Source of the DNA: Streptomyces spinoverrucosus | Lineage (GTDB): Bacteria; Actinomycetota; Actinomycetes; Streptomycetales; Streptomycetaceae | Reading direction: 5' to 3' | Length of the DNA: 64,000 nucleotides | Assembly (NCBI RefSeq): GCF_015712165.1 | Contig: NZ_JADPZX010000001.1 | Coordinates: 6,708,001 to 6,772,000 of the forward strand | In this document: in pieces, positions 29,762 to 58,015 of the stretch | Layout: each line of letters begins with the position of its first letter | Numbering within the stretch: position 1 is the stretch's first letter | Translations under genes and position numbers: made by a program | The notes under the pieces: generated by a model | The model's input: only the letters and a program-made list of their open reading frames with translations | Database searches by the model: none | Told to the model about the DNA's origin: nothing

Positions 29762-29779
29762 CGGTCGGTCGTACGTCGG

Positions 29780-29812: not shown

Positions 29813-29828
29813 TTGTGTGTCGGGAAGG

Positions 29829-34118: not shown

Positions 34119-35329
34119 GCGGTGCCTCCCAACGCGGTGAACAACTGCTCGTGGGTACGGCGCCGGCGTACGTCCCGTTTGAAGATCTCGGCTGTGACTT
34201 CGCTGAGCGTTCGCGCCGGTTCCCACAGGTCGAGACGGCTGGCCTCCGCCACCGTCTTCGACCACTCCTCCGGCACCGGCGAGCCCAATGCCCCCGCCAG
34301 GGCGCCCGCCATCGTGGCGATCGAGTCGCAGTCCCGGCCGTAGTTCACCGAACCCAGGACCGCCTGCCGGTAGTCGCCGCCCGCGACCAGCAACATGCCC
34401 AGCGCGATGGGGAGTTCCTCGATCGAGTGCAGCCGGGACGGGCGGCGGGCGCCGAGCGAGGGGGCCCGGTAGTCGGGGCCCACCGTGTCGTACGGGGCAA
34501 CCGCCTCGCGCAGCGCAGCCAGGGCCGACTCGAAGTCGGTGTATCCGGACGCCGTTTCGCACACTGCCTCGATCGCCGCCCGCGTACCGTCCTTCGCCCA
34601 CTCCAGGCTTGCCGTCACGACCGACTCCGGTGTCGCCCCGGGGACGCACGCCGCCGCCACGGCCGCCGCGAAGACGCCCGCCGCCTCGCGGCCGTACGAC
34701 GACTGGTGGGCGCCCGCGACGTCCAGCGCCTCGGTGTACGCGCCCGCCGGGTTGGCCGCGTTGACCAGGCCGACCGGGGCCATGTACATCGCGGCACCGC
34801 AGTTGACGATGTTGCCGACGCCAGCCTCCCGGGGGTCGACGTGACCGTAGTGCAGCCGGGTCACCAGCCACTTCTCCGCCAGGAAGATCCGGTGCAGGGG
34901 AAGGGCCTGCGACTCCAGCTCCGGGATCCAGCGCGGGGTGCCGATCAGGTCCGGGACCAGGTGGTCGGCGACGGCGTAGGCGTCGAGGTGGTCGCGGACC
35001 TGGGCGTAGACCCGTACCAGCGCGTGGGTCATCAACGTGTCGTCGGTGACGTGGCCGTCGCCCTTGTGGTACGGCGCGATGGGGCGGGCGGTGCGCCAGG
35101 CGTCGCCGTTCCAGGGGCCGACGATGCCGTGGACGCGGCCGCCGTGGCGTTCGGCGATCTGGTCGGGGGAGTAGCCCTCGACGGGGCCGCCGAGGGCGTC
35201 GCCGACGGCCGCGCCGACGAGGGCGCCGGTGATTCGGTCGTCGAGGTCGGTCCGGTCGTTGGGGTCGATCCGCTCGTTGCGAGAGTCTGCTCGGCTTTCT
35301 TCTCCTTTGGGGGTCATGAGCCGAATCAT
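34106..35329 (-). CDS. ADP-ribosylglycohydrolase family protein (paralogue 3)
   Basis: The 407-residue protein has a charged N-terminal 35 residues and then a full ADP-ribosylglycohydrolase domain: GALVGAAVGDALGGPVEGY, HVTDDTLMTHAL (metal motif 1) and NYGRDCDSIATMAGALAGAL (metal motif 2). All metal-ligand positions appear intact, so it is probably active, cleaving an N- or O-glycosidic bond to ribose. I chose the ATG at 35329 because its ATGA overlaps the stop of the upstream paralogue as elsewhere in this operon; the in-frame ATG at 35317 is the alternative. Confidence 0.87.
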   Translation of the reverse strand: MIRLMTPKGEESRADSRNERIDPNDRTDLDDRITGALVGAAVGDALGGPVEGYSPDQIAERHGGRVHGIVGPWNGDAWRTARPIAPYHKGDGHVTDDTLMTHALVRVYAQVRDHLDAYAVADHLVPDLIGTPRWIPELESQALPLHRIFLAEKWLVTRLHYGHVDPREAGVGNIVNCGAAMYMAPVGLVNAANPAGAYTEALDVAGAHQSSYGREAAGVFAAAVAAACVPGATPESVVTASLEWAKDGTRAAIEAVCETASGYTDFESALAALREAVAPYDTVGPDYRAPSLGARRPSRLHSIEELPIALGMLLVAGGDYRQAVLGSVNYGRDCDSIATMAGALAGALGSPVPEEWSKTVAEASRLDLWEPARTLSEVTAEIFKRDVRRRRTHEQLFTALGGTACSA

Positions 35330-36630
35330 CCCCCTGGCGGGGCCGGTTGTGCGGCTTCCAGGAGTTCGGCGAGTTCCACGAGGTCGGTGCCGGTGAGGCG
35401 GGGGAGTACGCAGCCGGAGAGATGGCGGCAGGTGTCGCGCCAGGACGCCGGGATCGACTTGCCGCCACCGAGCGTGCCGGTGAGGGCGCCCGCGAGGGCC
35501 GGGGCCGAGTCCGCGACGCGGGAGAGACAGGCCGCCGCGGGGACCGCCTCCGCGATCCGGCCGTGGGCGGCGACGGTGAGCGCGAGGGCGACCGGGACCG
35601 TCTCGGCGGCGGCGATGCCGTAGCTGTAGACGTGGTCCACGATCTGGTGTTCCAGGAGGGGGATCAGCGCGAAGGCGCTGACGGCGTCCGCCGCGAGTCT
35701 CAGGGCGTGGCGGGCGTTGCGGCCGATCTCCGTCTCCTCGGGCAGTTCGGCGAGCGCGGCTGTCACGCAGGTGCGCTGGTTCGCGCCGGCCAGGGCGAGG
35801 GACACGGCGGCGGCCATCGCGCGGGCGCCGTGCACGCCGTCGCCGTCCTGGGTGTAGCGGGCGTCGAACTCGGCGAGGGACGCGGCGAGCGTGGGGTCGC
35901 CCGGGTGAGCGACGGCCAGCACGCAGGCGCGTACGCAGGCCGCGTCGTCGAAGTAGTGCGGGTTGTCGTGGCCGGTGGCGGGCGGGCGCAGGCCGGCGGC
36001 GAGGTTGCCGAGGCCGGCCCGGACGGAGATGCGGGCGCGCAGCGGGAGGACGGCGGACTCGACCTCGGGGGCGCGTTCGGCCGCGGCGGCGACCTCGCTG
36101 GCCACGGCGGTCCAGGTGAGGTCGATGGCGGCGCGTACCCGGCGTTCCCGGCTGAGGTCGCCGAGGGTGGTGTCGTCGCCGGCCCGCAGCACCGCCTCCG
36201 CCGCGAACACCGCCCACTCGGCGTCGTCGGAGGGGCCGAGGCGGAGGGGTTCGGGGGGTTGGTTGAGGGCGATGGGGACGGGGAGGGTGGTGGTCGCGTT
36301 GTGCTCGGCGAAGGTGTCGAGTTCGCGGGTGAGGCGGCGGGTCCATTCGGGCATGCGGGCGGCTCGGTGGCGGGCGGCGGGCCAGCCGGCGGCGTCGCCC
36401 GCGGCGAGGCCCAGTAGGAGGCCTTCGATTCGGGCGCGGGTGCGGGTGCGGGTGGGGTGTTTGTGGGCCTCGACTTCGCCTTCGGCTGGGTGTTTACCAC
36501 CCGCACCGCCCGTGCGGGTTTCGTGGTCGGGTGCGGGTGGCCCCTGTGGGGAGTTCTCGCCGTCGGCGGCCGCGGGATCGAATCGGTCGCGCAGAGTCTT
36601 TGTGTCGTCCCATGGGGGCGGTGGTGTCAT
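35326..36630 (-). CDS. ADP-ribosylglycohydrolase family protein, degenerate active site (paralogue 2)
   Basis: The 434-residue product starts with about 65 residues of Pro/Glu/His-rich low-complexity sequence, then the domain: RIEGLLLGLAAGDAAGWPA, GPSDDAEWAVFAAEAVL in place of T-D-D-T, and VADSAPALAGALTGTLGGG where active relatives have a D-x-D-S/T-x-A motif. The second metal motif has thus lost most of its ligands, so this copy is likely inactive or binds a different cofactor. It overlaps both neighbours by four bases, which keeps it in the operon and argues for a retained, perhaps regulatory or heteromeric, role. Confidence 0.82.
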   Translation of the reverse strand: MTPPPPWDDTKTLRDRFDPAAADGENSPQGPPAPDHETRTGGAGGKHPAEGEVEAHKHPTRTRTRARIEGLLLGLAAGDAAGWPAARHRAARMPEWTRRLTRELDTFAEHNATTTLPVPIALNQPPEPLRLGPSDDAEWAVFAAEAVLRAGDDTTLGDLSRERRVRAAIDLTWTAVASEVAAAAERAPEVESAVLPLRARISVRAGLGNLAAGLRPPATGHDNPHYFDDAACVRACVLAVAHPGDPTLAASLAEFDARYTQDGDGVHGARAMAAAVSLALAGANQRTCVTAALAELPEETEIGRNARHALRLAADAVSAFALIPLLEHQIVDHVYSYGIAAAETVPVALALTVAAHGRIAEAVPAAACLSRVADSAPALAGALTGTLGGGKSIPASWRDTCRHLSGCVLPRLTGTDLVELAELLEAAQPAPPGG

Positions 36631-46082: not shown

Positions 46083-46332
46083 GGCCGGCTCCTCGAAGGG
46101 GGTGGGCGGACGGTGAGCCGGTGGGGTCGGCGGCGAACAAAATAGCGAACGTCGGTGGACGGTGATCGCGGTGGGGCGGGAGTGTCAGTGGCTGGCGGGC
46201 GCCCGGGAGCGGGGAGCGCGCGGACCGGTCGAGACGTACGGACCGGCTGAGATCTTTCGCGAACCTTTGGCTCGAGCGCTCCACCGTGTCACCCTGAGGA
46301 TGATCCGATCCGACGGGGGAGGGCGACGACTC

Positions 46333-47967
46333 ATGAACGGCGCACGGTCGGTGAACACGGCCACCGGCAGGGGGAGTTCCCCGGGACGGGGCGAGAAGCT
46401 GGCCGACTGGGCCGACGGGCGGCTCGGGCTCTACTCGCTCGCCAAGGCCAACATGCGCAAGGTCTTCCCGGACCACTGGTCCTTCATGCTGGGCGAGGTC
46501 TGCCTCTACAGCTTCCTCGTGCTGATCCTCACCGGCGTCTACCTCACGCTGTTCTTCGAGCCGAGCAGCGTAGAGGTGGTCTACGACGGGTCGTACACAC
46601 CGCTCAACGGCATCGTGATGACCCGGGCGTTCGAATCGACCCTGGAGATCAGCTTCGACGTGCGCGGCGGGCTGCTCATCCGGCAGATCCACCACTGGGC
46701 GGCGCTGGTCTTCGTCGCCGGCATGCTCGTGCACATGATGCGGGTGTTCTTCACCGGCGCCTACCGCAAGCCGCGCGAGATCAACTGGGTGTTCGGCTGG
46801 ACCCTGCTGCTGCTCGGCGTCATCACCGGCCTCACCGGCTACTCGCTCCCCGACGACCTGCTCTCCGGCACCGGCCTGCGCTTCGCCCAGGGCGCCATCC
46901 TGTCCGTCCCGATCGTGGGCACGTATCTGGCGTTCTTCCTGTTCGGCGGGGAGTTCCCGGGCCACGACATCATCTCGCGGCTGTTCCCGATCCATGTCCT
47001 GTTGCTGCCCGGGATCATGCTGGGCCTGGTGGTGGCCCATCTGATCCTGGTCTTCTACCACAAGCACACCCAGTACCCCGGCCCCGGCCGCGACCAGAAG
47101 TCGGTCGTCGGCATGCCCTTCCTGCCGGTCTACATGGCCAAGGCCGGCGGCTTCTTCTTCCTGGTCTTCGGCGCGCTCGCGATGCTGGGCGGACTCGCGC
47201 AGATCAACCCCGTCTGGGCGTTCGGGCCGTACCGCGCCGACCTCGTCACCACCGGCGCCCAGCCCGACTGGTACCTCGGCTTCTCCGAGGGCCTGATCCG
47301 GGTGATGCCGGGATGGGAGATCGACCTCGGGGGCCACACCCTCGTCCTCGGTGTCTTCATCCCTTTCGCGCTCTTCCCGCTGATCCTGGCGGCCATCGGC
47401 GTCTATCCCTTCATAGAGGCCTGGATCACCGGGGACAAACGCGAGCACCACATATTGGACCGGCCGCGCAACGCCCCCGTCCGCACCGGCCTCGGCGTCG
47501 CCTGGCTCACCCTCTACGTGGTCTGCCTGATCGGCGGCGGCAACGACATCGTCGCCACCCATCTGCATCTGTCGATCAACGCCATCACCTGGTTCGTCAG
47601 GATCGCGTTCTTCGTCGCGCCGGTGCTGGCGTTCGTCGTCACCAAGCGGATATGCCTGGGCCTGCAACGCCGAGACCGCGAGAAGGTACTGCACGGCCGG
47701 GAGACCGGCACCATCAAACGCCTGCCGCACGGCAAGTACATCGAGGTCCACGAACCGCTCACCCAGGCCCAGCGGCACACCCTCACCCAGCACGAGCAGC
47801 CGCCGCCGTACGAGATCGGACCGCGCGTCGACGCCAACGGCGTCCGGCGCCGCGTCACCGTCTCCCAGCGGGTACGGGCGCGGCTGGCGCGGGCCATGTT
47901 GGGGCCCGACAGCCACATCCCGAAGCCGACCCCGGAGGAGTACCGGGAGATCACGCGCGGGCACTGA
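46333..47967 (+). CDS. Orphan cytochrome b subunit (QcrB-like)
   Basis: The 544-residue protein is a cytochrome b of the actinobacterial bc complex type. Heme ligands are visible as His pairs in RQIHHWAALVFVAGMLVHMMR and PIHVLLLPGIMLGLVVAHL. The quinol-site motif is QPDWYLGFSEG, the actinobacterial form of PEWY, and GPGRDQKSVVG and HHILDRPRNAPVRT are typical of QcrB. I chose ATG 46333 (MNGARSVNTA) because GGGGGAGGG lies nine bases upstream; a longer reading is basic and unlike the family. Normally qcrB follows qcrC and qcrA; none is here, so this looks like a second, stand-alone copy. Confidence 0.88.
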   Translation: MNGARSVNTATGRGSSPGRGEKLADWADGRLGLYSLAKANMRKVFPDHWSFMLGEVCLYSFLVLILTGVYLTLFFEPSSVEVVYDGSYTPLNGIVMTRAFESTLEISFDVRGGLLIRQIHHWAALVFVAGMLVHMMRVFFTGAYRKPREINWVFGWTLLLLGVITGLTGYSLPDDLLSGTGLRFAQGAILSVPIVGTYLAFFLFGGEFPGHDIISRLFPIHVLLLPGIMLGLVVAHLILVFYHKHTQYPGPGRDQKSVVGMPFLPVYMAKAGGFFFLVFGALAMLGGLAQINPVWAFGPYRADLVTTGAQPDWYLGFSEGLIRVMPGWEIDLGGHTLVLGVFIPFALFPLILAAIGVYPFIEAWITGDKREHHILDRPRNAPVRTGLGVAWLTLYVVCLIGGGNDIVATHLHLSINAITWFVRIAFFVAPVLAFVVTKRICLGLQRRDREKVLHGRETGTIKRLPHGKYIEVHEPLTQAQRHTLTQHEQPPPYEIGPRVDANGVRRRVTVSQRVRARLARAMLGPDSHIPKPTPEEYREITRGH

Positions 47968-47980
47968 GGAGTACCGGGGA

Positions 47981-48937
47981 TCACAGGCGGGCACTCAGGA
48001 CCGCGTCCCGGCACTCGTCCGGACCGCCCCAGGCGCCGCGCAGGGCGCGGGCCTTGGTCAGCCACAGGGACAGGTCGTACTCCGCCGTGTAGCCGATCGC
48101 GCCGTGCAGTTGGAGCGCCGTACGGGCCGTAGTGTACGCCGCCTCGCACGCCGTGACCTTGGCGGCGGCCACGTCGGCGGCGCTCATGGTCAGCGCGGCA
48201 CCGAAGAGCAGCGGGCGCGCGAACGCCAGGGCGATCCGAGCGTCGGCCAGCCGGTGCTTGACCGCCTGGAAGGACCCTGTGGGCACGCCGAACTGGGTGC
48301 GCTGCCGGACGTAGGCGACAGTCCGGTCGAGCAGGGCTTCTCCGAGGCCGAGGGCCTGCGCGGCGGTGGCCAGGCGCGCCCAGGTGAGGGCCTGGTCGGT
48401 GGGCGGGGTGGGGGAGAGGAGCTCGCCGCCGGGGAGGAGGGGGGTGAGGCGGCGGGCCGGGTCCAGGGAGGGGCGGGCGGGGGTCGCCGGGCCGGGGGAC
48501 AGACGCAGGCCGTCGGCGGTGAGGGACAGGTGGGTGGTGGCCGCGTCGCCGTCGAGGGCGTACGGGGCGTCCGCCGACGCCAGCGTCGCCATGGTCCCGC
48601 CCGCCGCGAGGGACGGCAGGAAGCGCTTGGCGAGGGCCGGTTCCGTGAGCAGCGCGGCGGCCGTGACCGTCTCCACCAGCGGGCCCGGAACGGCATGTCG
48701 CCCCAACTCGACGAAGGCGACGGCCAGTTCGACCGGGCGGGCGCCCAGCCCGTCGTACTCCTCCGGTATCGCCAGCGCGAACACGCCCGCCTCGGCGATA
48801 CGGGCCCACAGCGCGCGTCCGCCGCAGTGGTCGCCGCGGCTCCAGTCCCGGATGACGGCGGGCGTGTCGGCGGCGGTGAGCAGGGCGTCCAGGGACGCGG
48901 CGAAGGCGCGCTGTTCGGGGTCGAGGAGGAAGCGCAT
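47981..48937 (-). CDS. Acyl-CoA dehydrogenase, short subunit (FadE33-like)
   Basis: The 318-residue protein is an acyl-CoA dehydrogenase fold of reduced length: MRFLLDPEQRAFAASLDALL, FALAIPEEYDGLGARPVELA, RTQFGVPTGSFQAVKHRLADA and LQLHGAIGYTAEYDLSLW. The size and the degenerate middle domain match the small partner of the alpha2-beta2 dehydrogenases of steroid catabolism (mycobacterial FadE33 is also 318 residues as I recall). It is directly downstream of the longer FadE with a one-base overlap (TGATG), so the two probably form one heteromeric enzyme oxidising a bicyclic or side-chain CoA thioester. Confidence 0.82.
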   Translation of the reverse strand: MRFLLDPEQRAFAASLDALLTAADTPAVIRDWSRGDHCGGRALWARIAEAGVFALAIPEEYDGLGARPVELAVAFVELGRHAVPGPLVETVTAAALLTEPALAKRFLPSLAAGGTMATLASADAPYALDGDAATTHLSLTADGLRLSPGPATPARPSLDPARRLTPLLPGGELLSPTPPTDQALTWARLATAAQALGLGEALLDRTVAYVRQRTQFGVPTGSFQAVKHRLADARIALAFARPLLFGAALTMSAADVAAAKVTACEAAYTTARTALQLHGAIGYTAEYDLSLWLTKARALRGAWGGPDECRDAVLSARL

Positions 48938-50076
48938 CAGCGGCGTCCCTTCGGCAGGCCCAGCAGGCGCTCGGCGATGATGTCGCGCTGGATCTCGTTG
49001 GTGCCGGCGTAGATCGGTCCGGCCAGGGCGAAGACGTACGGCTCGGACCACGCCGTGTCCGCCAGCTCACCCTCCGGGCCGAGGAGGTCGAGGGCGGTCT
49101 CGTGCAGCGCGATGTCGTACTCGGACCAGAACACCTTGTTCAGGCTCGACTCCGCGCCGAGCGGCTCCCCGTCGAGGAAGCGGGACGCGGCGGCGTAGGT
49201 GAAGAGCTGGTAGGCGCGGGCGCCGATGAGGGCGTCGGCGACTTTCCGGCGCAGGGCTTCGGGGCTTCCCTTCGCCCGCCAGAGCTCGTGCAGCCGATCG
49301 GCGGAGGCCAGGAAACGGCCGGGGGAGCGGAGCGTGAGGCCGCGTTCGCCGGCCGCTGTCGACATGGCGACACTCCAGCCCTGTCCTGGCTCCCCGACGA
49401 TGTCCTCGTCGGGGACGAAGACGTCGTCCAGGAACAGCTCGGCGAAGGCCGGTTTGCCGTCCAGGCGGGCGATGGGGCGGACCGTGACGCCGGGGGCGCG
49501 CAGGTCGAACATCAGGTACGTCAGGCCCTGATGGGGCCTCGCGGTGTGCTGCTCGCTGCGGAACAGGCCGAAGGCGCGGTCGGCGAAGGGCGCGCGGGAG
49601 GACCAGGTCTTCTGGCCGGACAGCAGCCAGCCGCCGTCGGTGCGGACGGCTCTCGACGTCAGGGACGCGAGGTCCGAACCCGCCTCCGGCTCCGACCAGG
49701 CCTGCGCCCAGATGATGTGACCCGAGGCCATGGTCGGCAGGACGCGTGCCAGCTGCTCCTCGGTGCCGTGGGCGAAGAGGGTGGGCGCGAGGAGATGGAT
49801 GCCGTTCTGGCTGACGCGGGCCGGGGCGGCGGCCGCGTAGTACTCCTCCTCGAAGATCAGCCACCGGACGAGCCCGCTGTCCCGGCCGCCGTACGCCGTC
49901 GGCCAGTCGACCACCGACCAGCGGTTCGCGGCCAGTTCGGCCTCCCACGCCCGGTGGGCGGCGAAGCCCTCCTCGGTCTCCAGGGAGGGGAGGGGAACGG
50001 ACGGCACGTGCGCGTGCAGCCAGCTCCGGGCCTCGGCCCGGAAGGCGTCCTCTTCCTGCGTGAACGCGAGATCCAT
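48937..50076 (-). CDS. fadE30: Acyl-CoA dehydrogenase (FadE30-like)
   Basis: The 379-residue protein has the full acyl-CoA dehydrogenase layout: WSVVDWPTAYGGRDSG, IIWAQAWSEPEAGSDLASL and LSGQKTWSSRAPFADRAF for FAD and substrate, and GPIYAGTNEIQRDIIAERLLG near the end, where Ala replaces the MCAD-type Glu. Length and neighbours (ipdF, kstR2, fadA6) match FadE30, which introduces a double bond into HIP-CoA during degradation of steroid rings C and D. ATG 50076 was chosen as it starts MDLAFTQEEDAFRAEA. The KstR2-like operator at 50093-50109 lies just upstream. Confidence 0.82.
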   Translation of the reverse strand: MDLAFTQEEDAFRAEARSWLHAHVPSVPLPSLETEEGFAAHRAWEAELAANRWSVVDWPTAYGGRDSGLVRWLIFEEEYYAAAAPARVSQNGIHLLAPTLFAHGTEEQLARVLPTMASGHIIWAQAWSEPEAGSDLASLTSRAVRTDGGWLLSGQKTWSSRAPFADRAFGLFRSEQHTARPHQGLTYLMFDLRAPGVTVRPIARLDGKPAFAELFLDDVFVPDEDIVGEPGQGWSVAMSTAAGERGLTLRSPGRFLASADRLHELWRAKGSPEALRRKVADALIGARAYQLFTYAAASRFLDGEPLGAESSLNKVFWSEYDIALHETALDLLGPEGELADTAWSEPYVFALAGPIYAGTNEIQRDIIAERLLGLPKGRR

Positions 50077-50092
50077 CGACGAACAGTCCTTC

Positions 50093-50109
50093 CCTAACAA
50101 GTGTTTGGT
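50093..50109. promoter_or_regulatory. KstR2-like operator 1 (fadE30 / ipdF divergent promoter)
   Basis: On the minus strand the bases read ACCAAACACTTGTTAGG, fitting the published KstR2 motif AnCAAGnnCTTGnT at 11 of 12 defined positions. It is nearly the same as the site at 56176-56192 (one base different). It overlaps the -35 and spacer region of the plus-strand promoter. Confidence 0.7.
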
Positions 50110-50113
50110 AGGT

Positions 50114-50119
50114 TAGCGT
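50114..50119 (+). promoter_or_regulatory. -10 element (TAGCGT) for leaderless ipdF transcript
   Basis: TAGCGT lies 6 bases before the ATG at 50126 and directly beside the KstR2-like operator, so binding there would block the promoter. Confidence 0.45.
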
Positions 50120-50125
50120 GACCCT

Positions 50126-50914
50126 ATGACAGGCGTCGAGAGTCCGGCGTACGTGCCCGGGCACGGGCTGCTGAAAGGCCGCACCGCCGTCATCACGGCC
50201 GCGGCCGGGGCGGGGATCGGCGGGGCGACCGCGCGCCGGTTCCTTCAGGAGGGCGCGCGCGTGCTGATCAGCGACGCCCATGTGCGGCGGCTGAAGGAGT
50301 ACGAGGCCGAGCTGGGGCGGGAGTTCGCCGGGGCGGTGACCGCCGTGCCCTGTGACGTCACGGACGAGGCCCAGGTACGGGAGCTGTTCGCGGCGGCCGT
50401 GCGGGAGCACGGGCGGCTGGACGTCGTCGTCAACAACGCGGGGCTCGGCGGGACCTGCGAGCTGGCCGACATGGCCGACGAGCAGTGGTTCCGGGTGGTC
50501 GACGTGACGCTGAACGGGACGTTCCGGTGTACGCGCGCGGCCCTGCGGCTGTTCCGCGAGGCGGGGCATGGAGGCGTGATCGTCAACAACGCGTCCGTCG
50601 TCGGCTGGCGGGCCCAGGCCGGGCAGGCGCACTACGCCGCCGCGAAGGCCGGCGTGATGGCGCTGACCAGGTGCGCGGCGATGGAGGCCGCCGAGTACGG
50701 GGTGCGGGTCAACGCGGTCGCGCCCAGCCTCGCCATGCACCCGCACCTGGCCAAGGTGACCACCCCCGAACTGCTCGCCGAGCTCACCGCGCGCGAGGCC
50801 TTCGGGCGGTACGCGGAGCCCTGGGAGGTGGCCAACGTGATCGTGTTCCTGGCCTCGGGCTACTCCTCCTATCTGACCGGAGAGGTCGTCTCCGTCAGCA
50901 GCCAACACCCGTAG
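50126..50914 (+). CDS. ipdF: Short-chain dehydrogenase, IpdF-like
   Basis: The 262-residue SDR has the cofactor motif AAAGAGIGGATARRF, the NNAG motif VVVNNAGLGGT, the catalytic Ser region (VNNASVVGWRAQ) and YAAAK (HYAAAKAGVMALTR). The variant GAGIG cofactor loop and length are as in IpdF of the mycobacterial HIP cluster, which oxidises the hydroxyl on the C/D-ring intermediate. It starts the plus-strand operon ipdF-kstR2-fadA6 and faces fadE30 across a KstR2-like operator. Confidence 0.8.
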   Translation: MTGVESPAYVPGHGLLKGRTAVITAAAGAGIGGATARRFLQEGARVLISDAHVRRLKEYEAELGREFAGAVTAVPCDVTDEAQVRELFAAAVREHGRLDVVVNNAGLGGTCELADMADEQWFRVVDVTLNGTFRCTRAALRLFREAGHGGVIVNNASVVGWRAQAGQAHYAAAKAGVMALTRCAAMEAAEYGVRVNAVAPSLAMHPHLAKVTTPELLAELTAREAFGRYAEPWEVANVIVFLASGYSSYLTGEVVSVSSQHP

Positions 50915-50917
50915 GCC

Positions 50918-50923
50918 CACAAT
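50918..50923 (+). promoter_or_regulatory. -10 element (CACAAT) for leaderless kstR2 transcript
   Basis: CACAAT lies 7 bases before the GTG at 50931. It could give kstR2 an own promoter inside the operon. Confidence 0.45.
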
Positions 50924-50930
50924 GGATGCC

Positions 50931-51545
50931 GTGCCGACCAAGAAGAACCCCCAGGTGACCGCCCCCGCACCGGCGCGCCGCCGTGAACTCCTGCGCACCG
51001 CCGCCGAGGTCTTCGCCGAGCAGGGGTACAACGCCACGACCGTCCGGACCATCGCCGACCACGCGGGCATGCTCGCGGGCAGCCTCTACTACCACTTCGA
51101 CTCCAAGGAGTCGATGCTGGAGGAGATCCTGCGCACCTTCCTCGACGAGCTCTGGGACGGCTACGACGCCGTCCTGGACGCCGGGCTCGGGCCGAGAGAG
51201 ACACTGGAGGCGCTGGTCACCGAGTCGTTCCGGGAGATCGACCGGCACCGCGCCGCCGTCGCGATCTACCAGAAGGAGTCCAGGCAGCTGGCTGCGCAGG
51301 AACGGTTCGCGTTCCTCGCCGAGTCGCAGCGCAGGTTCGAAAAGGCGTGGCTGTCCACGCTGGAACGCGGGGTCGCCGACCGGGCCTTCCGGGACGACCT
51401 CGACATCCGGCTCACGTACCGGTTCGTGCGGGACACCGTGTGGGTCGCCGCGTCCTGGTACCGGCCGGGCGGACAGCACAGCCCGGAGGAGATCGCCCGG
51501 CAGTACCTGTCGATGGTGCTGGACGGGATCGCCGTACGCACATAA
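50931..51545 (+). CDS. kstR2: TetR family regulator, KstR2-like
   Basis: The 204-residue protein has an N-terminal TetR helix-turn-helix: RRRELLRTAAEVFAEQGY then TTVRTIADHAGMLAGSLYYHF with DSKESMLEEIL. The C-terminal ligand domain is all-helical. KstR2 represses the genes for rings C and D of steroids and releases DNA upon binding HIP-CoA. The neighbours are exactly those of mycobacterial kstR2, and two operators matching its motif lie in this cluster. I chose the GTG at 50931 (MPTKKNPQ) because of the -10 hexamer before it; the ATG at 50922 overlaps that hexamer. Confidence 0.82.
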   Translation: MPTKKNPQVTAPAPARRRELLRTAAEVFAEQGYNATTVRTIADHAGMLAGSLYYHFDSKESMLEEILRTFLDELWDGYDAVLDAGLGPRETLEALVTESFREIDRHRAAVAIYQKESRQLAAQERFAFLAESQRRFEKAWLSTLERGVADRAFRDDLDIRLTYRFVRDTVWVAASWYRPGGQHSPEEIARQYLSMVLDGIAVRT

Positions 51546-51580
51546 CTCGCAGAAGTCGCACACCTCGCTGGGGAGTCGTC

Positions 51581-52738
51581 ATGGCCGAGGCCTACATCGT
51601 CGAAGCGGTCCGTACGCCCGTCGGGCGACGCGGGGGAGGACTCAGCGCGGTCCACCCGGCCGACCTGGGCGCGCATGTGCTCAGGGAACTCGTCTCGCGG
51701 GCCGGGGTGGATCCGGCGGCCGTCGAGGACGTCGTCTTCGGGTGTCTGGACGCGGTGGGGCCGCAGGCCGGTGACATCGCGCGGACCTGCTGGCTGGCGG
51801 CCGGGCTGCCCGAGGAGGTGCCGGGCGTGACCGTCGACCGGCAGTGCGGGTCCTCGCAGCAGGCCGTGCACTTCGCGGCGCAGGCCGTGCTGTCCGGGAC
51901 GCAGGACCTGGTGGTCGCCGGGGGCGTGCAGAACATGTCGCAGATCCCGATCGCCTACGCCACCCGGCAGGCCGCCGAGCCGCTGGGCTTCACGCAGGGG
52001 CCGTTCGCGGGCAGCGAGGGCTGGCGGGCGCGATACGGGGACCGGCCGGTGAACCAGTTCGCCGGGGCCGAGATGATCGCCGCGAAGTGGGGGATCGGCC
52101 GGGTTGAGCAGGAGGAGTTCGCGCTGCGTTCGCACCAGCGGGCCGTGCGGGCGATCGACGAGGGCCGCTTCGCGCGCGAGACCGTGTCGTACGGGGACGT
52201 GACCGTCGACGAGGGGCCACGGCGGGACACCACGTTGGAGAAGATGGCCGCGCTGAAGCCGGTCATCGACGGCGGCACGGTCACGGCCGCCTGCTCGTCC
52301 CAGGTCTCCGACGGGGCGGCGGCACTGCTGCTGGCCTCGGAGCGGGCGGTGCGCGAGCACGGGCTGACGCCTCGGGCCCGCGTCCACCACCTCTCGGTGC
52401 GCGGCGAGGACCCGATCCGCATGCTGACCGCCCCGATCCCGGCCACCGCCCACGCCCTGAAGAAGACCGGCCTCACCCTCGACGACATCGACCTCGTCGA
52501 GATCAACGAGGCCTTCGCGCCGGTCGTCCTCGCCTGGCTGAAGGAGACCGGCGCCGACCCCGACAAGGTCAACGTCAACGGCGGCGCGATAGCCCTGGGA
52601 CACCCGCTCGGCGCGACCGGCGCGAAGCTGATGACGACACTGCTGCACGAACTGGAGCGCACGGGCGGGCGGTTCGGGCTCCAGACGATGTGCGAGGGTG
52701 GGGGACAGGCCAACGTGACGATCATTGAGCGGGTCTGA
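51581..52738 (+). CDS. fadA6: Acetyl-CoA acetyltransferase (thiolase), FadA6-like
   Basis: The 385-residue thiolase has the first catalytic Cys in VDRQCGSSQQAVHFAAQAV, the NEAFAPV motif with the catalytic His context (EINEAFAP), the GHPLGATGAK motif, and the second Cys in LQTMCEGGGQANVTII. It cleaves a 3-oxoacyl-CoA with free CoA. Length, order after kstR2 and convergent placement to ipdC match FadA6 of the HIP cluster. It starts at ATG 51581, 35 bases after kstR2, and ends 29 bases before the convergent ipdC stop. Confidence 0.85.
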   Translation: MAEAYIVEAVRTPVGRRGGGLSAVHPADLGAHVLRELVSRAGVDPAAVEDVVFGCLDAVGPQAGDIARTCWLAAGLPEEVPGVTVDRQCGSSQQAVHFAAQAVLSGTQDLVVAGGVQNMSQIPIAYATRQAAEPLGFTQGPFAGSEGWRARYGDRPVNQFAGAEMIAAKWGIGRVEQEEFALRSHQRAVRAIDEGRFARETVSYGDVTVDEGPRRDTTLEKMAALKPVIDGGTVTAACSSQVSDGAAALLLASERAVREHGLTPRARVHHLSVRGEDPIRMLTAPIPATAHALKKTGLTLDDIDLVEINEAFAPVVLAWLKETGADPDKVNVNGGAIALGHPLGATGAKLMTTLLHELERTGGRFGLQTMCEGGGQANVTIIERV

Positions 52739-52767
52739 GAGGGGGCGGAGCCTCTTCCGGGACGCGA

Positions 52768-53826
52768 TCACTGGTCGGACCTGAGCGGCTCAAGCGACTT
52801 CAGCACCGCCTCCGCCTCCCCGACGATGCGCTGCACCAGTTCCGCGCACGACGGCAGATCCTCGATCACCCCGGCGACCTGACCGGACGCCATCACCCCG
52901 AGGTCCGTACGGCCCTGCACCATCGCCGATCTGAGCAGCATCGGCGTGTTCGCGGCCAGCAGGACCTGGCCCCAGGTCAGGTCCTTGCCGTGCTTCATGG
53001 CGAGGCCGTCCTGGAGCATACGGCGCCAGGTGAGGCCGGAGATCCTGCGGAAGCCGGCCGCTCGACGGACGGCCCGCAGGAGTCTGCCGGTCCGGCCGGA
53101 TCTCTCCAGGGCGTCGACCAGTTCGGTACGCAGCATGCGGTGGGGCAGGCCGTCGATCGCCGTCGTGACCGTGACGTCCCTGACCGTCGCCGCCAGATAC
53201 CTCGCCTTCACCGCGTCCGGCACCGTCGAGTCCGACGTCAGCAGGAACCGCGTCCCCATGGCGACCCCCGCCGCCCCGTACGCCAGCGCCGCGACCAGCC
53301 CCCGCCCGTCGAAGAAGCCGCCCGCCGCCACGACCGGGATGTCCACGGCATCCACCACCTGCGGCAACAACACCGTCGTCGCGACCTCGCCGGTGTGCCC
53401 GCCACCCTCACCGCCCTGCACGATCACCGCGTCCGCGCCCCACGCCGCGACCTTCTCGGCATGCCGCCGCGCCCCGACGGACGGGATGACGACGACGCCC
53501 GCCTCCTTGAGCGCGGCGATCAGGTCACGGGAGGGCGCGAGGGCGAAGGACGCGACCCGCACCCCCTCCTCGATCATGATCTGCACCCGGTCTGCCGCGT
53601 CCCCCGCGTCCGCGCGCAGGTTCACCCCGAACGGTGCCGTCGTCCGCGCCCCGACCTCCCGTATCGCCGCGCGCAACTGGTCGAGCGTCATCGTGGCCGA
53701 CGCCAGGATGCCCAGCGCTCCCGCGTTCGCCGTCGCCGAGACCAGGCGGGGGCCCGCCACCCAGCCCATCCCGGTCTGCACGATCGGGTGCCGTACGCCG
53801 ACCAGTCTGGTGAACGCCGTCTCCAT
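52768..53826 (-). CDS. ipdC: Nitronate monooxygenase-family flavoprotein, IpdC-like
   Basis: The 352-residue FMN barrel has RHPIVQTGMGWVAGPRLVSATANAGALGILAS, VQGGEGGGHTG (flavin and catalytic His region) and PVVAAGGFFDGRGLVAALAYGAAGVAMGTRFLLT. In general this family is called 2-nitropropane dioxygenase. In the HIP cluster the corresponding protein, IpdC, is a flavin-dependent CoA-ester enzyme acting with IpdAB on ring C. It is last in the operon echA20-ipdA-ipdB-ipdC; its ATG overlaps the ipdB stop by one base. Confidence 0.82.
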   Translation of the reverse strand: METAFTRLVGVRHPIVQTGMGWVAGPRLVSATANAGALGILASATMTLDQLRAAIREVGARTTAPFGVNLRADAGDAADRVQIMIEEGVRVASFALAPSRDLIAALKEAGVVVIPSVGARRHAEKVAAWGADAVIVQGGEGGGHTGEVATTVLLPQVVDAVDIPVVAAGGFFDGRGLVAALAYGAAGVAMGTRFLLTSDSTVPDAVKARYLAATVRDVTVTTAIDGLPHRMLRTELVDALERSGRTGRLLRAVRRAAGFRRISGLTWRRMLQDGLAMKHGKDLTWGQVLLAANTPMLLRSAMVQGRTDLGVMASGQVAGVIEDLPSCAELVQRIVGEAEAVLKSLEPLRSDQ

Positions 53827-54566
53827 CAGATCCGCACCTCCCGCTCCCGGGTGTTCGCCGGGTCGATCACCTCACGGACGAGGCGCAGTTCCTCGGGGGT
53901 CGGTGCACGGGTCTGCGGTACCTCGGCCGGGATCGTCAGCTCGAAGCCGGTCGCTTCCCTGACCTGCTCGACGGTCACCCCCGGATGCAGGGAGGCGACC
54001 CGCATGGAGCGGTCCGGCGTGGCGAAGTCGAAGACGCCGAGGTCCGAGACGACCCGGGCCAGATGGTGGAAGCGGGCCGTTTCCGGATGGCGGGCGGCAC
54101 GGTCGTGGCCGACCCCGCACACCATGTCGACGCGCTCGACGAACACCCGCCGGGAGTGCCGGGGGATCCAGTAACTCGTCGGGTTGTTCAGCGTGTTGAC
54201 CGGCGCCCCGCGCACGCCGAGCAGTTGCCTCGACGGCTTGGCCCAGTCGCCGACGCAGGCGATGTTCTGGTTGCCGTGCCGGTCGATCTGACTGGCGCCC
54301 ATCATCACGTGCCGTCGGCCGCCGGTGACGAGGGTGAGGTGCCGGCGGTACGGCAGCCAGCCCTCGGCGTTGCCGTCGGCGTCCACCAGCGTCGCCTCGC
54401 CGTCGGTGAGCAGCAGGTCGGGGGCGAAGGTGTGCCGGGCGAGCCGGGCGCCGATGGAGGGGATCAGGCCCATGGGGCTCGCGAGGATCTCGCCTGCACC
54501 ACGCCAGGCTTCGGCGCAGGCGAGCACGCAGTACTCGGCGCGGGTGGGTGGGGGCGTCGGGTTCAT
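53826..54566 (-). CDS. ipdB: CoA-transferase-fold subunit beta, IpdB-like
   Basis: The 246-residue protein has the class I CoA-transferase beta fold: EYCVLACAEAWRGAGEILASPMGLIPSIGARLA, LLLTDGEATLV, MMGASQIDRHGNQN and FVERVDMVCGVGH. In IpdAB this fold does not transfer CoA but hydrolyses the ring of COCHEA-CoA, opening steroid ring C. ATG 54566 overlaps the ipdA stop by four bases (ATGA). Its placement between ipdA and ipdC supports the IpdB assignment over a generic 3-oxoacid transferase. Confidence 0.82.
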   Translation of the reverse strand: MNPTPPPTRAEYCVLACAEAWRGAGEILASPMGLIPSIGARLARHTFAPDLLLTDGEATLVDADGNAEGWLPYRRHLTLVTGGRRHVMMGASQIDRHGNQNIACVGDWAKPSRQLLGVRGAPVNTLNNPTSYWIPRHSRRVFVERVDMVCGVGHDRAARHPETARFHHLARVVSDLGVFDFATPDRSMRVASLHPGVTVEQVREATGFELTIPAEVPQTRAPTPEELRLVREVIDPANTREREVRI

Positions 54567-55411
54567 TTCCCCTCCTCGTGCCAGGCCCGGACGGCGGACC
54601 GGTATGCGTGCTCGTCCTCGCCGAGGAAGCGCTCGGCGAACCCCGGCCAGGGTGCGGTGGCGTAGTGCTTCTGGAAGGTCTCGTCCCGTGTGTAGTCCGG
54701 TGCGCAGGACGTGAAGTGGGCGCCGTTCGGGGCCTCGACGACCCCGGTCACCGTGTGCCGCGGGATGAGCAGCGTCTGCGGCGCCGCCTCCTTCGTCAGC
54801 TCGGCCGTGTCCACGATCCGCTCGCAGGAGACGTACGCCGTCTCGGCCGCCGCGCAGAACAGGTCGTCGAAGTACGGGTCGGGGCCCAGATACTGCCCGT
54901 TGCCCCGCCGGTCGGCGCGATTGACGTGGACCAGGGCCGCGTCGAGGCGCAGGGCGGGCATGGCGAGGAGCGTCTCCCCGTCGTCGTACGGCGACGTCAC
55001 CGTGCGCAGGCCGGGGTTGACCCGCATGACGTCCGAGCCGATCCCGGTCCGTACCGGCAGGAAGGGCAGCCGGTTCGCGGCCGCGTGCAGTCCCCACAGG
55101 AACATCGCCTCGTCGATCTCCATCAGCTCCAGCGCCCCGCGCTCCCGGGCCGCGCGATAGTGCGGTTCGAGCGGGATGGAGTCGAGCGTGGCGAAGGCGG
55201 CGACCAGCTTCCGGATCCGGCCGGCGGCGGCCAGCATGCCGACGTCCGGGCCGCCGTACGACACGACGGTCAGATCGGTGATCTCGGACCGGAGCAGTGC
55301 TCTCACCAGTGCCATCGGTTTGCGGCGCGAGCCCCAGCCGCCGATGCCGAGCGTCATGCCGCTCTCCAGCCGGGAGACGACCTCCTGCGCGGTCATCGTC
55401 TTGTCGGTCAC
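54563..55411 (-). CDS. ipdA: CoA-transferase-fold subunit alpha, IpdA-like
   Basis: The 282-residue protein shows the alpha-subunit fold: AQEVVSRLESGMTLGIGGWGSRRKPMALVRALL, SYGGPDVGMLAAAGRI, MEIDEAMFLWGLHAAANRLPFLPVRTGIGSDV and ALVHVNRADRRGNGQYLGPDPYFDDLFC. It pairs with the beta subunit downstream to form the ring-cleaving hydrolase of the HIP pathway. The GTG start at 55411 overlaps the echA20 stop (GTGA). An in-frame ATG lies five codons later (55396) and is the alternative start. Confidence 0.82.
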   Translation of the reverse strand: MTDKTMTAQEVVSRLESGMTLGIGGWGSRRKPMALVRALLRSEITDLTVVSYGGPDVGMLAAAGRIRKLVAAFATLDSIPLEPHYRAARERGALELMEIDEAMFLWGLHAAANRLPFLPVRTGIGSDVMRVNPGLRTVTSPYDDGETLLAMPALRLDAALVHVNRADRRGNGQYLGPDPYFDDLFCAAAETAYVSCERIVDTAELTKEAAPQTLLIPRHTVTGVVEAPNGAHFTSCAPDYTRDETFQKHYATAPWPGFAERFLGEDEHAYRSAVRAWHEEGK

Positions 55412-56154
55412 CGAGTCCCGTCCTTTCCGAAGGTGCTCCGCACCCGGTCCGCCACCCCGCTCACCTCGGCCTCGAAGGTGAACCCCTGCTCGAAGCGGTA
55501 GCTGCGGCGCACGTCGACGGGGTCGATACCGCTGATCGCCGCCTTCGCCAGGCGCAACAGCCGGCCGTCCTTGGCGGCGATCTCGCGAGCCAACTCCAGC
55601 GCCGCTCCGCCCAGTTCCTCGCCGCGTACCACCCGCCACACCGAGCCGTGCGCGTGCAGCTCGGCCGCGCTCGCCGTACGCGAGGTGTAGTACAGCGCGC
55701 GCATGAGGTGCTGGGGGACCAGGCGGGCCAGGTGCGTGGCGGCGCCGAGCGCCCCCCGGTCCAGCTCTGGCAGGCCGAAGGTGGCGTCCTCGCTCGCCAC
55801 GATCGCGTCCGCGTTGCCGACGAGCCCGATGCCGCCGCCCAGACAGAAGCCCCGCACCGCCGCCACGACGGGAACCTCGCACTCGTACACCGCCGCGAAC
55901 GCCTCCGCGCACGCCGAGTTGGCGCCCAGCAGGGCGCTCGGGCCCCCCGCCTGTATCTCCTTGATGTCCACGCCCGCGTTGAAGCCGCGCCCCTCGGCGG
56001 TCAGCACGACACAGCGCACGTCGGGGTCCCGTCCGGCCGCGCGCACGGCGTCGGCCAGGGCGTACCAGCCGTGCACCGGCAGCGCGTTGACCGGGGGGAA
56101 GTCGACCGTGACGACGGAAATCCCCTTTTCCGGGGACGAGGTGGAGACACCCAT
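55408..56154 (-). CDS. echA20: Enoyl-CoA hydratase/isomerase family protein, EchA20-like
   Basis: The 248-residue crotonase-fold protein has VVLTAEGRGFNAGVDIKEIQ and VVAAVRGFCLGGGIGLVGNADAIVAS, the two oxyanion-hole regions, and FGLPELDRGALGAATHLARL. In the HIP cluster EchA20 opens ring D by hydrolysis of a cyclic beta-diketone CoA ester. It is first in the operon with ipdA, ipdB and ipdC. I chose ATG 56154; a longer reading to 56184 would start inside the operator. The gene is divergent from the SDR gene at 56242. Confidence 0.82.
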   Translation of the reverse strand: MGVSTSSPEKGISVVTVDFPPVNALPVHGWYALADAVRAAGRDPDVRCVVLTAEGRGFNAGVDIKEIQAGGPSALLGANSACAEAFAAVYECEVPVVAAVRGFCLGGGIGLVGNADAIVASEDATFGLPELDRGALGAATHLARLVPQHLMRALYYTSRTASAAELHAHGSVWRVVRGEELGGAALELAREIAAKDGRLLRLAKAAISGIDPVDVRRSYRFEQGFTFEAEVSGVADRVRSTFGKDGTR

Positions 56155-56175
56155 GGCCGCATCAACTACCTTTCC

Positions 56176-56192
56176 ACCAAACATTTGTTAGG
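56176..56192. promoter_or_regulatory. KstR2-like operator 2 (echA20 / SDR divergent promoter)
   Basis: The plus strand reads ACCAAACATTTGTTAGG, fitting AnCAAGnnCTTGnT at 10 of 12 defined positions and matching operator 1 at 16 of 17 bases. It lies 22 bases upstream of the echA20 start and 50 bases upstream of the SDR start, between two outward-facing promoters. Confidence 0.68.
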
Positions 56193-56241
56193 TGTTCGAG
56201 GCCTCGAAGCTAGCAGTCGCCGATTCAGCGCGGGAGCCCCT

Positions 56242-57102
56242 GTGGACAAAGCCGCCCTTGTGGATAACTCGCCGGACACCCCGCCTGACGACGCGCCTGA
56301 CAACGCGCCTGACAACGCGCCTGACAACGCGCCTGACAACGCGCCGAACAACCCGCCGCTCCCACAGCTCGACGGCCGGACCGTCGTCGTCACCGGCGGC
56401 ACCCGAGGGGTCGGGGCAGGGATCGCACGCGTGTTCGCCGAGGCCGGTGCCGAGGTCGTCACCTGCGCGCGACGGCCACCCGAAGTCCCCGTCGAGGGCA
56501 GCCGGTTCGTACCCCTCGACCTGCGTGAGCCCGCTGCCGTACGGGACTTCTTCGCCGCGCTGCCCCGGCTGGACGTCCTCGTCAACAACGCCGGCGGCAC
56601 CCCGTACCGGCTGCTCACCGACGTCGACGCCGAGCGCCACGCCCGCGTCGTCGAGCTCAACCTCCTGGCTCCGCTGACCGCGTCGCTCGCCGCCTACGAG
56701 CCGTTGCGGCGGGCGCGGGGGTGCGTGGTGATGATCGGCAGTGTCAGCGGGGGCCGCCCGTCACCCGGGTCGGCCGCGTACGGCGCCGCCAAGGCCGGGC
56801 TGGAGAGTCTCGCCCGCTCGATGGCGGTGGAGTGGGCGCCCCACGTCCGCGTGAACACGCTCCTCGTCGGCATGGTCCACACCGAGCTGTCCCACCTGCA
56901 CTACGGCGGCGACGAGGGCGTCGCCGCCGTCTCCCGCACGGTCCCGCTCGGGCGGCTCGCCACCCCGGCCGACGTCGGGGCGGCCGCCGTGTTCCTCGCG
57001 TCCGACGCCGCCTCGTACATCAGCGGAGCCAGTCTGCACGTGCACGGCGGCGGCGAGCGGCCCGCGTTCCTGGACGCCGCGACCGCCCGCAAGGAGGGAT
57101 GA
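56242..57102 (+). CDS. SDR family oxidoreductase with repeat N-terminus (HIP cluster)
   Basis: The 286-residue product has an unusual N-terminal 40 residues with the repeat DNAP four times (plus DDAP and NNPP), then a classical SDR: VVVTGGTRGVGAGIARVF, VLVNNAGGTPYR, GSVSGGRPSP and YGAAKAGLESLARS. It corresponds in position to the SDR divergent from echA20 in Mycobacterium. The GTG at 56242 has GGGAG five bases upstream; a start after the repeats (for example GTG 56260) is possible. Which intermediate it reduces or oxidises is unknown. Confidence 0.8.
   Translation: MDKAALVDNSPDTPPDDAPDNAPDNAPDNAPDNAPNNPPLPQLDGRTVVVTGGTRGVGAGIARVFAEAGAEVVTCARRPPEVPVEGSRFVPLDLREPAAVRDFFAALPRLDVLVNNAGGTPYRLLTDVDAERHARVVELNLLAPLTASLAAYEPLRRARGCVVMIGSVSGGRPSPGSAAYGAAKAGLESLARSMAVEWAPHVRVNTLLVGMVHTELSHLHYGGDEGVAAVSRTVPLGRLATPADVGAAAVFLASDAASYISGASLHVHGGGERPAFLDAATARKEG
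56284..56355 (+). repeat. Six 12-bp tandem repeats in the SDR gene
   Basis: The unit CCTGACAACGCG occurs four times exactly (56296-56343), flanked by CCTGACGACGCG (56284-56295) and CCGAACAACCCG (56344-56355). It encodes Pro-Asp-Asn-Ala units in the SDR frame, and its length, a multiple of three, keeps the frame when copies are gained or lost. Confidence 0.85.
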
Positions 57103-57103
57103 C

Positions 57104-58015
57104 ATGAGCCGAAGCCGCGAGGGACGGGTCGTCGTCGTGACCGGGGCCGGACGAGGGCTCGGGCGGGCCCACGCGCTCGCCTTCGCCGCCGAGGGGGCAC
57201 GGGTCGTCGTCAACGACCTCGGCGTCGGACTCGACGGCAGGCCCGGCGCCGACAGCCCGGCCGCCCGCGTGGCCGACGAGATCCGCGCGGCGGGCGGCGA
57301 GGCCGTCGCCCACGCCGGCGACATCGCGACCACCGAGGGCGCCGCCGCCCTGATCCGGACCGCCTTGGAGACGTACGGCCGCCTGGACACGCTCGTCAAC
57401 AACGCCGGTTTCCTGCGCGACCGCATGCTCGTCAACCTCGACGAGGACGACTGGGACGACGTCCTGCGCGTTCACCTCAAGGGCCACTTCCTGCCGCTGA
57501 AACACGCCGCCGCGCACTGGCGGGCCGAGGCCAGGGCGGGCCGCACGCCGGAGGCCAGGATCGTCAACACCAGCAGCGGGGCCGGACTGCTGGGCTCTGT
57601 CGGCCAGGGCAACTACAGCGCCGCCAAGGCCGGGATCGTCGGGCTGACCCTGGTCGCGGCGGCCGAACTGGGCCGGTACGGCGTGCAGGTCAACGCCATC
57701 GCCCCGGCGGCGCGTACCCGGATGACGGAGCGGACGTTCGCCGAGACCATGGCGGCGCCGGGCAGCGGATTCGACGCCATGGCACCGGAGAACGTCTCGC
57801 CGCTGGTCGTCTGGCTCGGGTCCGCCGCGAGCGCGGGCGTCACCGGTCGGGTGTTCGAGGCGGAGGGCGGCCGTATCACCGTGATGGAGGGGTGGCGGGC
57901 CGGGCCCACCGCTGACAAGGGTGCGCGGTGGGGCGTGGCCGAACTCGACGCGGTGGTACGAGGGTTGCTGGCCCGGTCGACCGAGCCCGGGCCGGTGTAC
58001 GGCAGCCAGGTGTGA
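57104..58015 (+). CDS. SDR family oxidoreductase (HIP cluster, long form)
   Basis: The 303-residue SDR has VVVTGAGRGLGRAHALAFA, NDLGVGLDG, TLVNNAGFLRDRMLVNLDEDDWDDVLRVHLKGHF, the catalytic Ser (NTSSGAGL) and NYSAAKAGIVGL. The NDLG and LKGHF motifs with a C-terminal extension of about 40 residues mark the long hydroxyacyl-CoA dehydrogenase-like SDRs. Size and order match the second SDR next to echA20 in mycobacteria. ATG 57104 follows the previous stop by one base, with AAGGAGG upstream, so both SDR genes are one operon. Confidence 0.82.
   Translation: MSRSREGRVVVVTGAGRGLGRAHALAFAAEGARVVVNDLGVGLDGRPGADSPAARVADEIRAAGGEAVAHAGDIATTEGAAALIRTALETYGRLDTLVNNAGFLRDRMLVNLDEDDWDDVLRVHLKGHFLPLKHAAAHWRAEARAGRTPEARIVNTSSGAGLLGSVGQGNYSAAKAGIVGLTLVAAAELGRYGVQVNAIAPAARTRMTERTFAETMAAPGSGFDAMAPENVSPLVVWLGSAASAGVTGRVFEAEGGRITVMEGWRAGPTADKGARWGVAELDAVVRGLLARSTEPGPVYGSQV

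Follow-up and report, generated by a model that had tools for sequence, protein, structure and literature searches.

A KstR2-type C/D-ring cluster without the known upper steroid pathway in a Streptomyces genome

The locus and its described relatives

The closest described systems are the KstR2 regulon and the methylhexahydroindanedione propionate (HIP) cluster of Mycobacterium, Rhodococcus, and Nocardia (Kendall 2010, PMC3068626; Crowe 2017, PMC5380842). IpdF, IpdC, EchA20, IpdAB, and FadA6 are reported to convert the coenzyme A (CoA) thioester 5-OH HIC-CoA to that of 4-methyl-5-oxo-octanedioic acid (MOODA-CoA) in vitro (PMC5380842), FadE30 and FadE33 are described as IpdE1 and IpdE2, which dehydrogenate 5-OH-HIP-CoA (PMC8708139), and FadE32, or FadE31-FadE32, has been proposed to act on MOODA-CoA (PMC6678751). 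Homologous ring C/D enzymes, likened here by description only, are given for the HIP clusters of Comamonas testosteroni and Steroidobacter denitrificans (PMC5380842 Table 1; PMC6678751), which the table lists for steroid-degrading bacteria and for which it gives no KstR2. Here we describe a compact block of 11 protein genes at positions 47981 to 58015 of a 64-kb stretch (the window; C1:6,708,001-6,772,000) of a Streptomyces genome of 8.85 Mb in five contigs. The block is a real KstR2/ipd C/D-ring cluster, and with the mycobacterial, rhodococcal, and nocardial regulon it shares KstR2, operators, ipdF, fadA6, ipdABC, echA20, fadE31, fadE32, and both short-chain dehydrogenase (SDR) genes. Unlike that regulon, the block contains no fadD3, fadE30, fadE33, or echA13, and no ring A/B genes were found in the genome in searches that did not include KstD. 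We interpret the block, with a probability of roughly 0.7, as a reduced, stand-alone KstR2 regulon that would act on HIP-like acids, the upper steps being encoded elsewhere.

All 11 genes, called from open reading frames and codon position, are intact open reading frames. The minus strand carries the fadE32-like and fadE31-like genes and the run echA20-ipdA-ipdB-ipdC; the plus strand carries ipdF-kstR2-fadA6, with fadA6 convergent to ipdC, and two SDR genes divergent from echA20. We used as a yardstick the KstR2 region of Nocardia farcinica NCTC 11134 (loci L019 and L023), in which FadD3, HsaA, and HsaC pass the NCBIfam cut-offs and the other genes are named by place and comparison. Relative order and strands within each sub-block are the same there as in the window, and each of the 11 proteins pairs best with one N. 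farcinica regulon member, at 52 to 68% identity. Because gene order and sequence identity agree, a chance origin of the resemblance is excluded, and the operators described below add to this. The arrangement proposed in the initial annotation (echA20-ipdA-ipdB-ipdC, divergent SDRs, convergent fadA6, and ipdF-kstR2 upstream) is thus the one seen, and its match to the KstR2 regulon holds for 11 genes rather than the ten it counted; no pairing with unrelated fatty-acid or aromatic clusters arose.

The ring-opening and regulatory genes are recognizable individually. The predicted ipdF-like SDR (262 amino acids [aa]; 50126-50914, plus) is 68% identical to N. farcinica IpdF and scores 447 bits with NCBIfam PRK07831 (cut-off 336; a generic SDR name), and the fadA6 thiolase (385 aa; 51581-52738, plus) is 67% identical to its counterpart, with 706 bits to PRK07801 (cut-off 591; generic name). 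Between them lies kstR2 (50922-51545, plus), encoding a TetR-family repressor of 207 aa that is 58% identical to N. farcinica KstR2; its top phmmer matches are 2ibd (E = 1.2e-66), which we take to be from Rhodococcus, and 4w1u/4w97 (E = 8e-58 for 4w1u, named KstR2). On the minus strand follow ipdC (352 aa; 52768-53826), a FabK/nitronate-monooxygenase-type flavoprotein 67% identical to N. farcinica IpdC, the ring C hydrolase genes ipdB (beta subunit, 246 aa; 53826-54566) and ipdA (alpha subunit, 282 aa; 54563-55411), each 57% identical to its N. farcinica orthologue, and echA20 (248 aa; 55408-56154), a ring D hydrolase of the crotonase family (67%; PRK07938, 390 bits, cut-off 260, generic name). 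As for KstR2, the top structural matches of IpdA (6co6_A, E = 2.2e-96) and IpdB (6co6_B, E = 1.3e-89) are solved mycobacterial or rhodococcal relatives. In the alignments, IpdA Glu101 falls on the 6co6 glutamate that is alanine in 6coj, and IpdB Gly56, in the sequence TDGEA, is matched by the corresponding glycine of both solved IpdBs; by our own residue count it corresponds to Gly57 of PMC5380842. By alignment, then, glycine replaces the transferase glutamate of the beta subunit while the alpha-subunit glutamate is conserved, and on these two residues we rejected a type I CoA-transferase function for IpdAB.

The two acyl-CoA dehydrogenases had been labeled FadE30-like and FadE33-like, an assignment that the comparison with Nocardia overturns. 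The large-subunit-type protein (379 aa; 48937-50076, minus) is 64% identical to N. farcinica FadE31 versus 40% to FadE30, and the small-subunit-type protein (318 aa; 47981-48937, minus) is 52% identical to FadE32 versus 33% to FadE33. In the dehydrogenase tree they group with Nocardia FadE31 and FadE32 with support of 1.0 each, and the NCBIfam IpdE2 model gives the FadE32-like protein 149 bits, far under its cut-off of 450. From the pairing and the tree, we therefore assign them to FadE31 and FadE32. The remaining genes encode an Rv3549c-like SDR (56242-57102, plus; 57% identical to its N. farcinica orthologue) and an Rv3548c-like SDR (303 aa; 57104-58015, plus; 68%, with 490 bits to PRK07791, cut-off 373, a generic SDR name). 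The former is predicted to have 286 aa from GTG 56242 or 281 aa from GTG 56260; its true start is uncertain because alignment with the Nocardia copy begins only near residue 43, and the frame opens with an extension bearing repeated Asp-Asn-Ala-Pro (a 12-base repeat, ~56290-56350). For the 10 proteins scanned against NCBIfam (all but the Rv3549c-like SDR), the models returned generic names or none, which bears out the earlier expectation that generic annotation hides the pathway.

KstR2-type operators and the steps missing from the block

The published KstR2 motif is a 14-bp palindrome, AnCAAGnnCTTGnT, located at divergent promoters and supported by electrophoretic mobility shift assay (EMSA) (PMC3068626). 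The pattern AnCAArnnYTTGnT has only two exact fits in the 64-kb window, and both fall in divergent intergenic regions of the block: a predicted operator, AACAAGTGTTTGGT, between fadE31 and ipdF (50096-50109) and another, ACCAAACATTTGTT, between echA20 and the SDR genes (56176-56189). These differ from the published consensus by one and two transitions. With one mismatch allowed, there were three matches versus 0.54 expected, a number reached in 1 of 100 shuffles. In the fadE31/ipdF site, which is kept in place in relatives, 24 of 30 bases are the same as in the M. tuberculosis EMSA probe for Rv3560c/Rv3561 printed in PMC3068626, and 20 of 30 are the same as in the Rv3549c/Rv3550 probe. The echA20/SDR site shares 15 of 30 bases with the former probe; against the latter it reaches at most 16 of 30, and does so outside the palindrome, so that beyond its 14 bases it has no kinship to the probes. 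A narrower pattern, AACAARNNYTTGNT, the one spelling searched genome-wide (others were scanned in the window and in 200 kb of genome stretches), matched these two sites only, with one match for the backward control; the direct KstR2 regulon may thus consist of these 11 genes. Both operators are present in 49 and one in 9 of 58 complete reduced regions (chosen mostly among FadE30-negative genomes), and both in 44, one in 12, and none in 6 of 62 loci of at least 20.7 kb. A second KstR2, 78% identical to that of the window, is encoded on plasmid p1 of Streptomyces sp. BHT-5-2 (L025, 15517-16119), ~2.16 Mb from that strain's cluster; the 30-kb stretch around it has no other match to the window's genes.

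The block is a C/D-ring-opening module without the known steroid pathway above it. Since IpdE1-IpdE2 act on 5-OH-HIP-CoA and FadE32, or FadE31-FadE32, is proposed to act on MOODA-CoA, the retained genes are those from 5-OH HIC-CoA downward, and all proteins of the lower HIP pathway to MOODA-CoA (IpdF, IpdC, EchA20, IpdAB, and FadA6) are encoded. The lost genes are those that activate HIP, shorten its side chain, and handle a 7-hydroxyl. The initial annotation had recognized the KstR2/ipd C/D-ring character of the cluster but had not remarked on the missing FadD3, FadE30/FadE33, and ring A/B enzymes. Full steroid clusters do occur in a minority of the genus (for example, G195, L044 and L045; Streptomyces sp. 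NBC_00841 plasmid, L024). Their core proteins are 70 to 86% identical to those of the window (FadE32, 59 to 61%), but they have FadE30 and EchA13 between ipdF and fadE31, as well as FadD3-like, HsaFG, and KshA-like proteins, which the window block does not; the G195 cluster additionally has HsaACD.

Elsewhere in the genome, the best HsaA score was 209 bits against a cut-off of 450, and HsaC had no match at E ≤ 1e-60; both models pass in N. farcinica and were positive in 0 of 14 control genomes. A KshA-like Rieske query, a Nocardia gene named by eye that has no NCBIfam model at E = 1e-60, matches the full Streptomyces clusters at ~61% and had no match in this genome at E ≤ 1e-15. By these searches, with KstD outside them, the strain is unable to carry out the known 9,10-seco steroid pathway. 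Orthologues of FadE30 and FadE33 are not in the block; an unlinked FadE30-like protein is 63% identical to FadE30 of the full cluster (L045), and unlinked FadD3 homologues are 48 to 54% identical to FadD3-like proteins of full Streptomyces clusters. It is conceivable that the strain degrades whole steroids with ring A/B enzymes too divergent to recognize, as FadD3-, FadE30-, and FadE33-like genes are present and HsaC-type genes occur in 26 of 295 Streptomyces genomes, at least 10 of which have them on the ipdA contig at a distance of ~22 kb or less. We consider this very unlikely, however, given the negative KshA-like, HsaA, and HsaC searches and the work of Bergstrand and colleagues, in whose predictions 55 of 57 Streptomyces genomes lack a steroid pathway (PMC4810484).

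Under the reduced-regulon interpretation, KstR2 would repress the two divergent promoters until a HIP- or HIC-type CoA thioester binds, as judged from its orthologue. IpdF and IpdC would convert 5-OH HIC-CoA, a methylhydrindane carboxyl-CoA, to HIEC-CoA, EchA20 would hydrolyze the five-membered ring and IpdAB the six-membered ring, FadA6 would thiolyze the product to MOODA-CoA, and FadE31-FadE32 would start its beta-oxidation; the two SDRs likely take part in the same route. The strain can probably open a methylhydrindane-type bicyclic CoA thioester. Its most likely growth substrates are HIP-like bicyclic acids, such as those set free by other steroid degraders, and enzymes encoded elsewhere would activate these acids and shorten their side chains. 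A streptomycete grown on HIP was reported to accumulate MOODA (Hashimoto and Hayakawa 1977, as cited in PMC5380842).

Distribution and conservation of the reduced cluster

The ring-opening core is widespread in the genus. With only the top candidates of each genome scored, which makes the counts lower bounds, 211 of 295 Streptomyces genomes have ipdA (E ≤ 1e-40), 46 have a FadE30 orthologue, and 26 have an HsaC-type match, and the three sets are strictly nested. The FadE30 cut was set by us at ≥72% identity (the next genome, G303, at 65%, was counted as a non-orthologue), and the HsaC cut was likewise ours, at ≥330 bits (next score, 290); 57 of the 295 genomes had some HsaC match at E ≤ 1e-60, and all 26 accepted matches are under the curated cut-off of 450, compared with 577 bits in N. 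farcinica. ipdA occurs without a FadE30 orthologue in 165 of 295 genomes and, at the chosen cut, without HsaC in 185 of the 211 that bear it. Among the best 80 loci, IpdA is 76 to 90% identical to that of the window and 79 are titled Streptomyces, in agreement with the Streptomyces-like host suggested by the initial annotation.

Coupling of ring C/D and ring A/B genes also varies across the class. In a draw of 393 genomes, ipdA (E ≤ 1e-70) was found in 110 and HsaC (E ≤ 1e-95, a cut that could miss divergent HsaC) in 54, 50 of them above the model cut-off. The two coincide in all 36 ipdA-bearing genomes of family f6, in 13 of 13 of f24, and in single genomes of f32 and f43, compared with 1 of 31 in Streptomyces, 2 of 12 in f17, and none of the 10, 5, and 1 in f18, f16, and f14, respectively. 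The few coincidences in these last four families indicate that uncoupling is not unique to Streptomyces, although divergent HsaC may be missed there. With ipdA in 211 Streptomyces genomes and in eight other families of the draw, the cluster is not the trait of mycolic-acid actinobacteria that it had been taken for. Streptomyces have been thought rare steroid degraders, yet the ring-opening half is present in most of the genomes sampled; rather than a rare steroid degrader, we describe the lower half of the steroid pathway, conserved in a genus mostly without the upper half. Either steroid degraders supply Streptomyces with HIP as a shared soil nutrient, or the genus opens the rings of some other compound. 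The cluster also serves as a marker, one that generic annotation obscures. Among the titles listed in searches of the openly licensed literature, none concerned a Streptomyces HIP cluster without ring A/B genes, which is a weak negative.

The reduced architecture is itself conserved. Comparison of 79 Streptomyces regions, window included and picked mostly from FadE30-negative genomes (so that the fraction is not a prevalence), gave 58 in which the set of 11 was complete and no extra steroid gene was present; the standard order is kept in 55 of the 58. From the genome collection, 46 of 62 loci of at least 20.7 kb were complete and reduced; the other 18 of the 80 loci were shorter and were left out. 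Intermediate forms have FadE30 and EchA13 without Hsa genes nearby, FadE30 alone, or EchA13 alone. In one region (L115), which seems to be in the course of losing these genes, the match to FadE30 covers residues 177 to 386 only and that to EchA13 is split in two. A tree of 74 tips was built from seven concatenated proteins after removal of the 7 of 81 regions in which fewer than six of these genes were present. FadE30 is in the region at 10 of the tips, L115 counted, which requires six changes by Fitch and six losses by Dollo parsimony; the six changes are all readable as losses. The FadE30-less clade that holds the window has 46 tips, support of 1.0, and a retained core, and a second FadE30-less clade has 12 tips and support of 0.46.

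Such losses might suggest that the block is a nonfunctional relic of an ancestral steroid pathway. The truncated FadE30 and split EchA13 of L115 mean that erosion does occur at this place, and in some genomes (G191, G259, G263, and G305) ipdA was matched in two pieces (best E ~1e-80) and is perhaps interrupted. In the window, however, all 11 genes are open and both operators are kept, and dN/dS against four relatives is 0.05 to 0.37 across all 11 genes, indicating purifying selection. On these values and the core-keeping 46-tip clade we rejected the relic explanation, which we regard as the most improbable of those considered.

A second locus and the possible substrate

A second locus at ~4.872 to 4.905 Mb, 1.85 Mb from the block, encodes an SDR, a FadE30-like dehydrogenase that is 56% identical to FadE30 of N. 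farcinica, a flavin reductase that scores 193 bits with the HsaB model (cut-off, 230), an enoyl-CoA hydratase, a thiolase-like protein of the lipid-transfer kind, a FadE33-like dehydrogenase that scores 211 bits with the IpdE2 model (cut-off, 450), a ChsH2-type zinc-ribbon/OB protein, and a FadD3-like ligase. In 40-kb stretches from ten relatives chosen for having the FadE30-like gene, the SDR and FadE30-like genes were found in 10 of 10, FadE33-like and thiolase-like genes in 9, and ChsH2-like and FadD3-like genes in 6. Of the 165 genomes that have ipdA but no FadE30 orthologue, 89 have the FadE30-like gene (E ≤ 1e-125), compared with none of the 84 ipdA-negative genomes; this restriction to ipdA-positive genomes weakens the view that FadE30 was lost with nothing in its place. 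Because the cut is close to this genome's own score (9.2e-128), we checked the FadE33-like gene separately in 80 genomes and found it in 25 of 25 ipdA-positive genomes, all drawn from those without a FadE30-like match, versus 1 of 55 ipdA-negative genomes (a 44% match in G028 was not counted). These counts make the second locus the best candidate for supplying the missing upper steps.

Several observations weigh against a reduced regulon fed by this locus. The known KstR2 effector is HIP-CoA, whose formation requires HIP-CoA synthetase; the block has no such gene, and the genome's nearest proteins (52 and 49% to Nocardia FadD3) are not clear orthologues. Four regions (L096, L120, L183, and L204) keep both operators with no KstR2 between ipdF and fadA6. 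Seven of the 25 FadE33-like positives are split or partial matches, the ipdA-negative genome G166 has a FadE33-like gene over 326 of 394 residues, and the co-occurrence counts ignore phylogeny. No AnCAArnnYTTGnT site was found in 60 kb around the second locus (three stretches), so that it is not marked for KstR2 control. Finally, the second locus is also present in G183, which keeps FadE30 and HsaC, and it is therefore not simply a FadE30 replacement; we dropped that explanation in favor of an extra upper route, which is more likely.

It is also possible, though we hold this only tentatively, that the natural substrate is not a steroid but a methylhydrindane or bicyclic terpenoid acid from Streptomyces, plants, or fungi, delivered by the second locus as a HIC-type CoA thioester. 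In that case, the block and the second locus might form a pathway common to most ipdA-bearing Streptomyces for a nonsteroid bicyclic natural product, joining an ancestral steroid lower half to a new upper half, a proposal that we likewise rate as doubtful. The nesting of HsaC, FadE30, and ipdA while the ring-opening core stays under purifying selection fits such a substrate, as does a co-occurring second locus with thiolase-like and ChsH2-like proteins and an acyl-CoA dehydrogenase pair but no KstR2 mark. However, KstR2 and the first operator are still close to the mycobacterial ones, and no candidate compound has been identified. We favor HIP-like acids as the more likely substrates of the reduced regulon.

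Other genes near the block or resembling the absent ones were noted. A simple codon-position scan called no gene in a high-GC stretch of 6.9 kb (29762-36626) of the window. A QcrB-like cytochrome b gene (601 aa, named by eye; 46162-47967) adjoins fadE32 and holds this position in many reduced-cluster relatives, a sign of vertical inheritance; a functional link to the block is not apparent. Two more loci of the genome were weighed as possible sources of the upper steps. A beta-oxidation-like cluster (C1:6396000-6416000; L037) contains a FadE30/FadE33-like pair, a FadD3-like ligase (47 to 49%), SDRs, a thiolase, and a MaoC-looking protein and adjoins an apparent nonribosomal peptide synthetase gene (the last two named by eye). 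On a 482-kb contig, a large catabolic island (C2:160000-220000; L039-L041) encodes an ATP-binding cassette-type transporter, CoA ligases, CoA-transferases, and amidohydrolases, most of them named by eye, together with three FadE30-like (36 to 52%) and three FadE33-like (43 to 44%) dehydrogenases.

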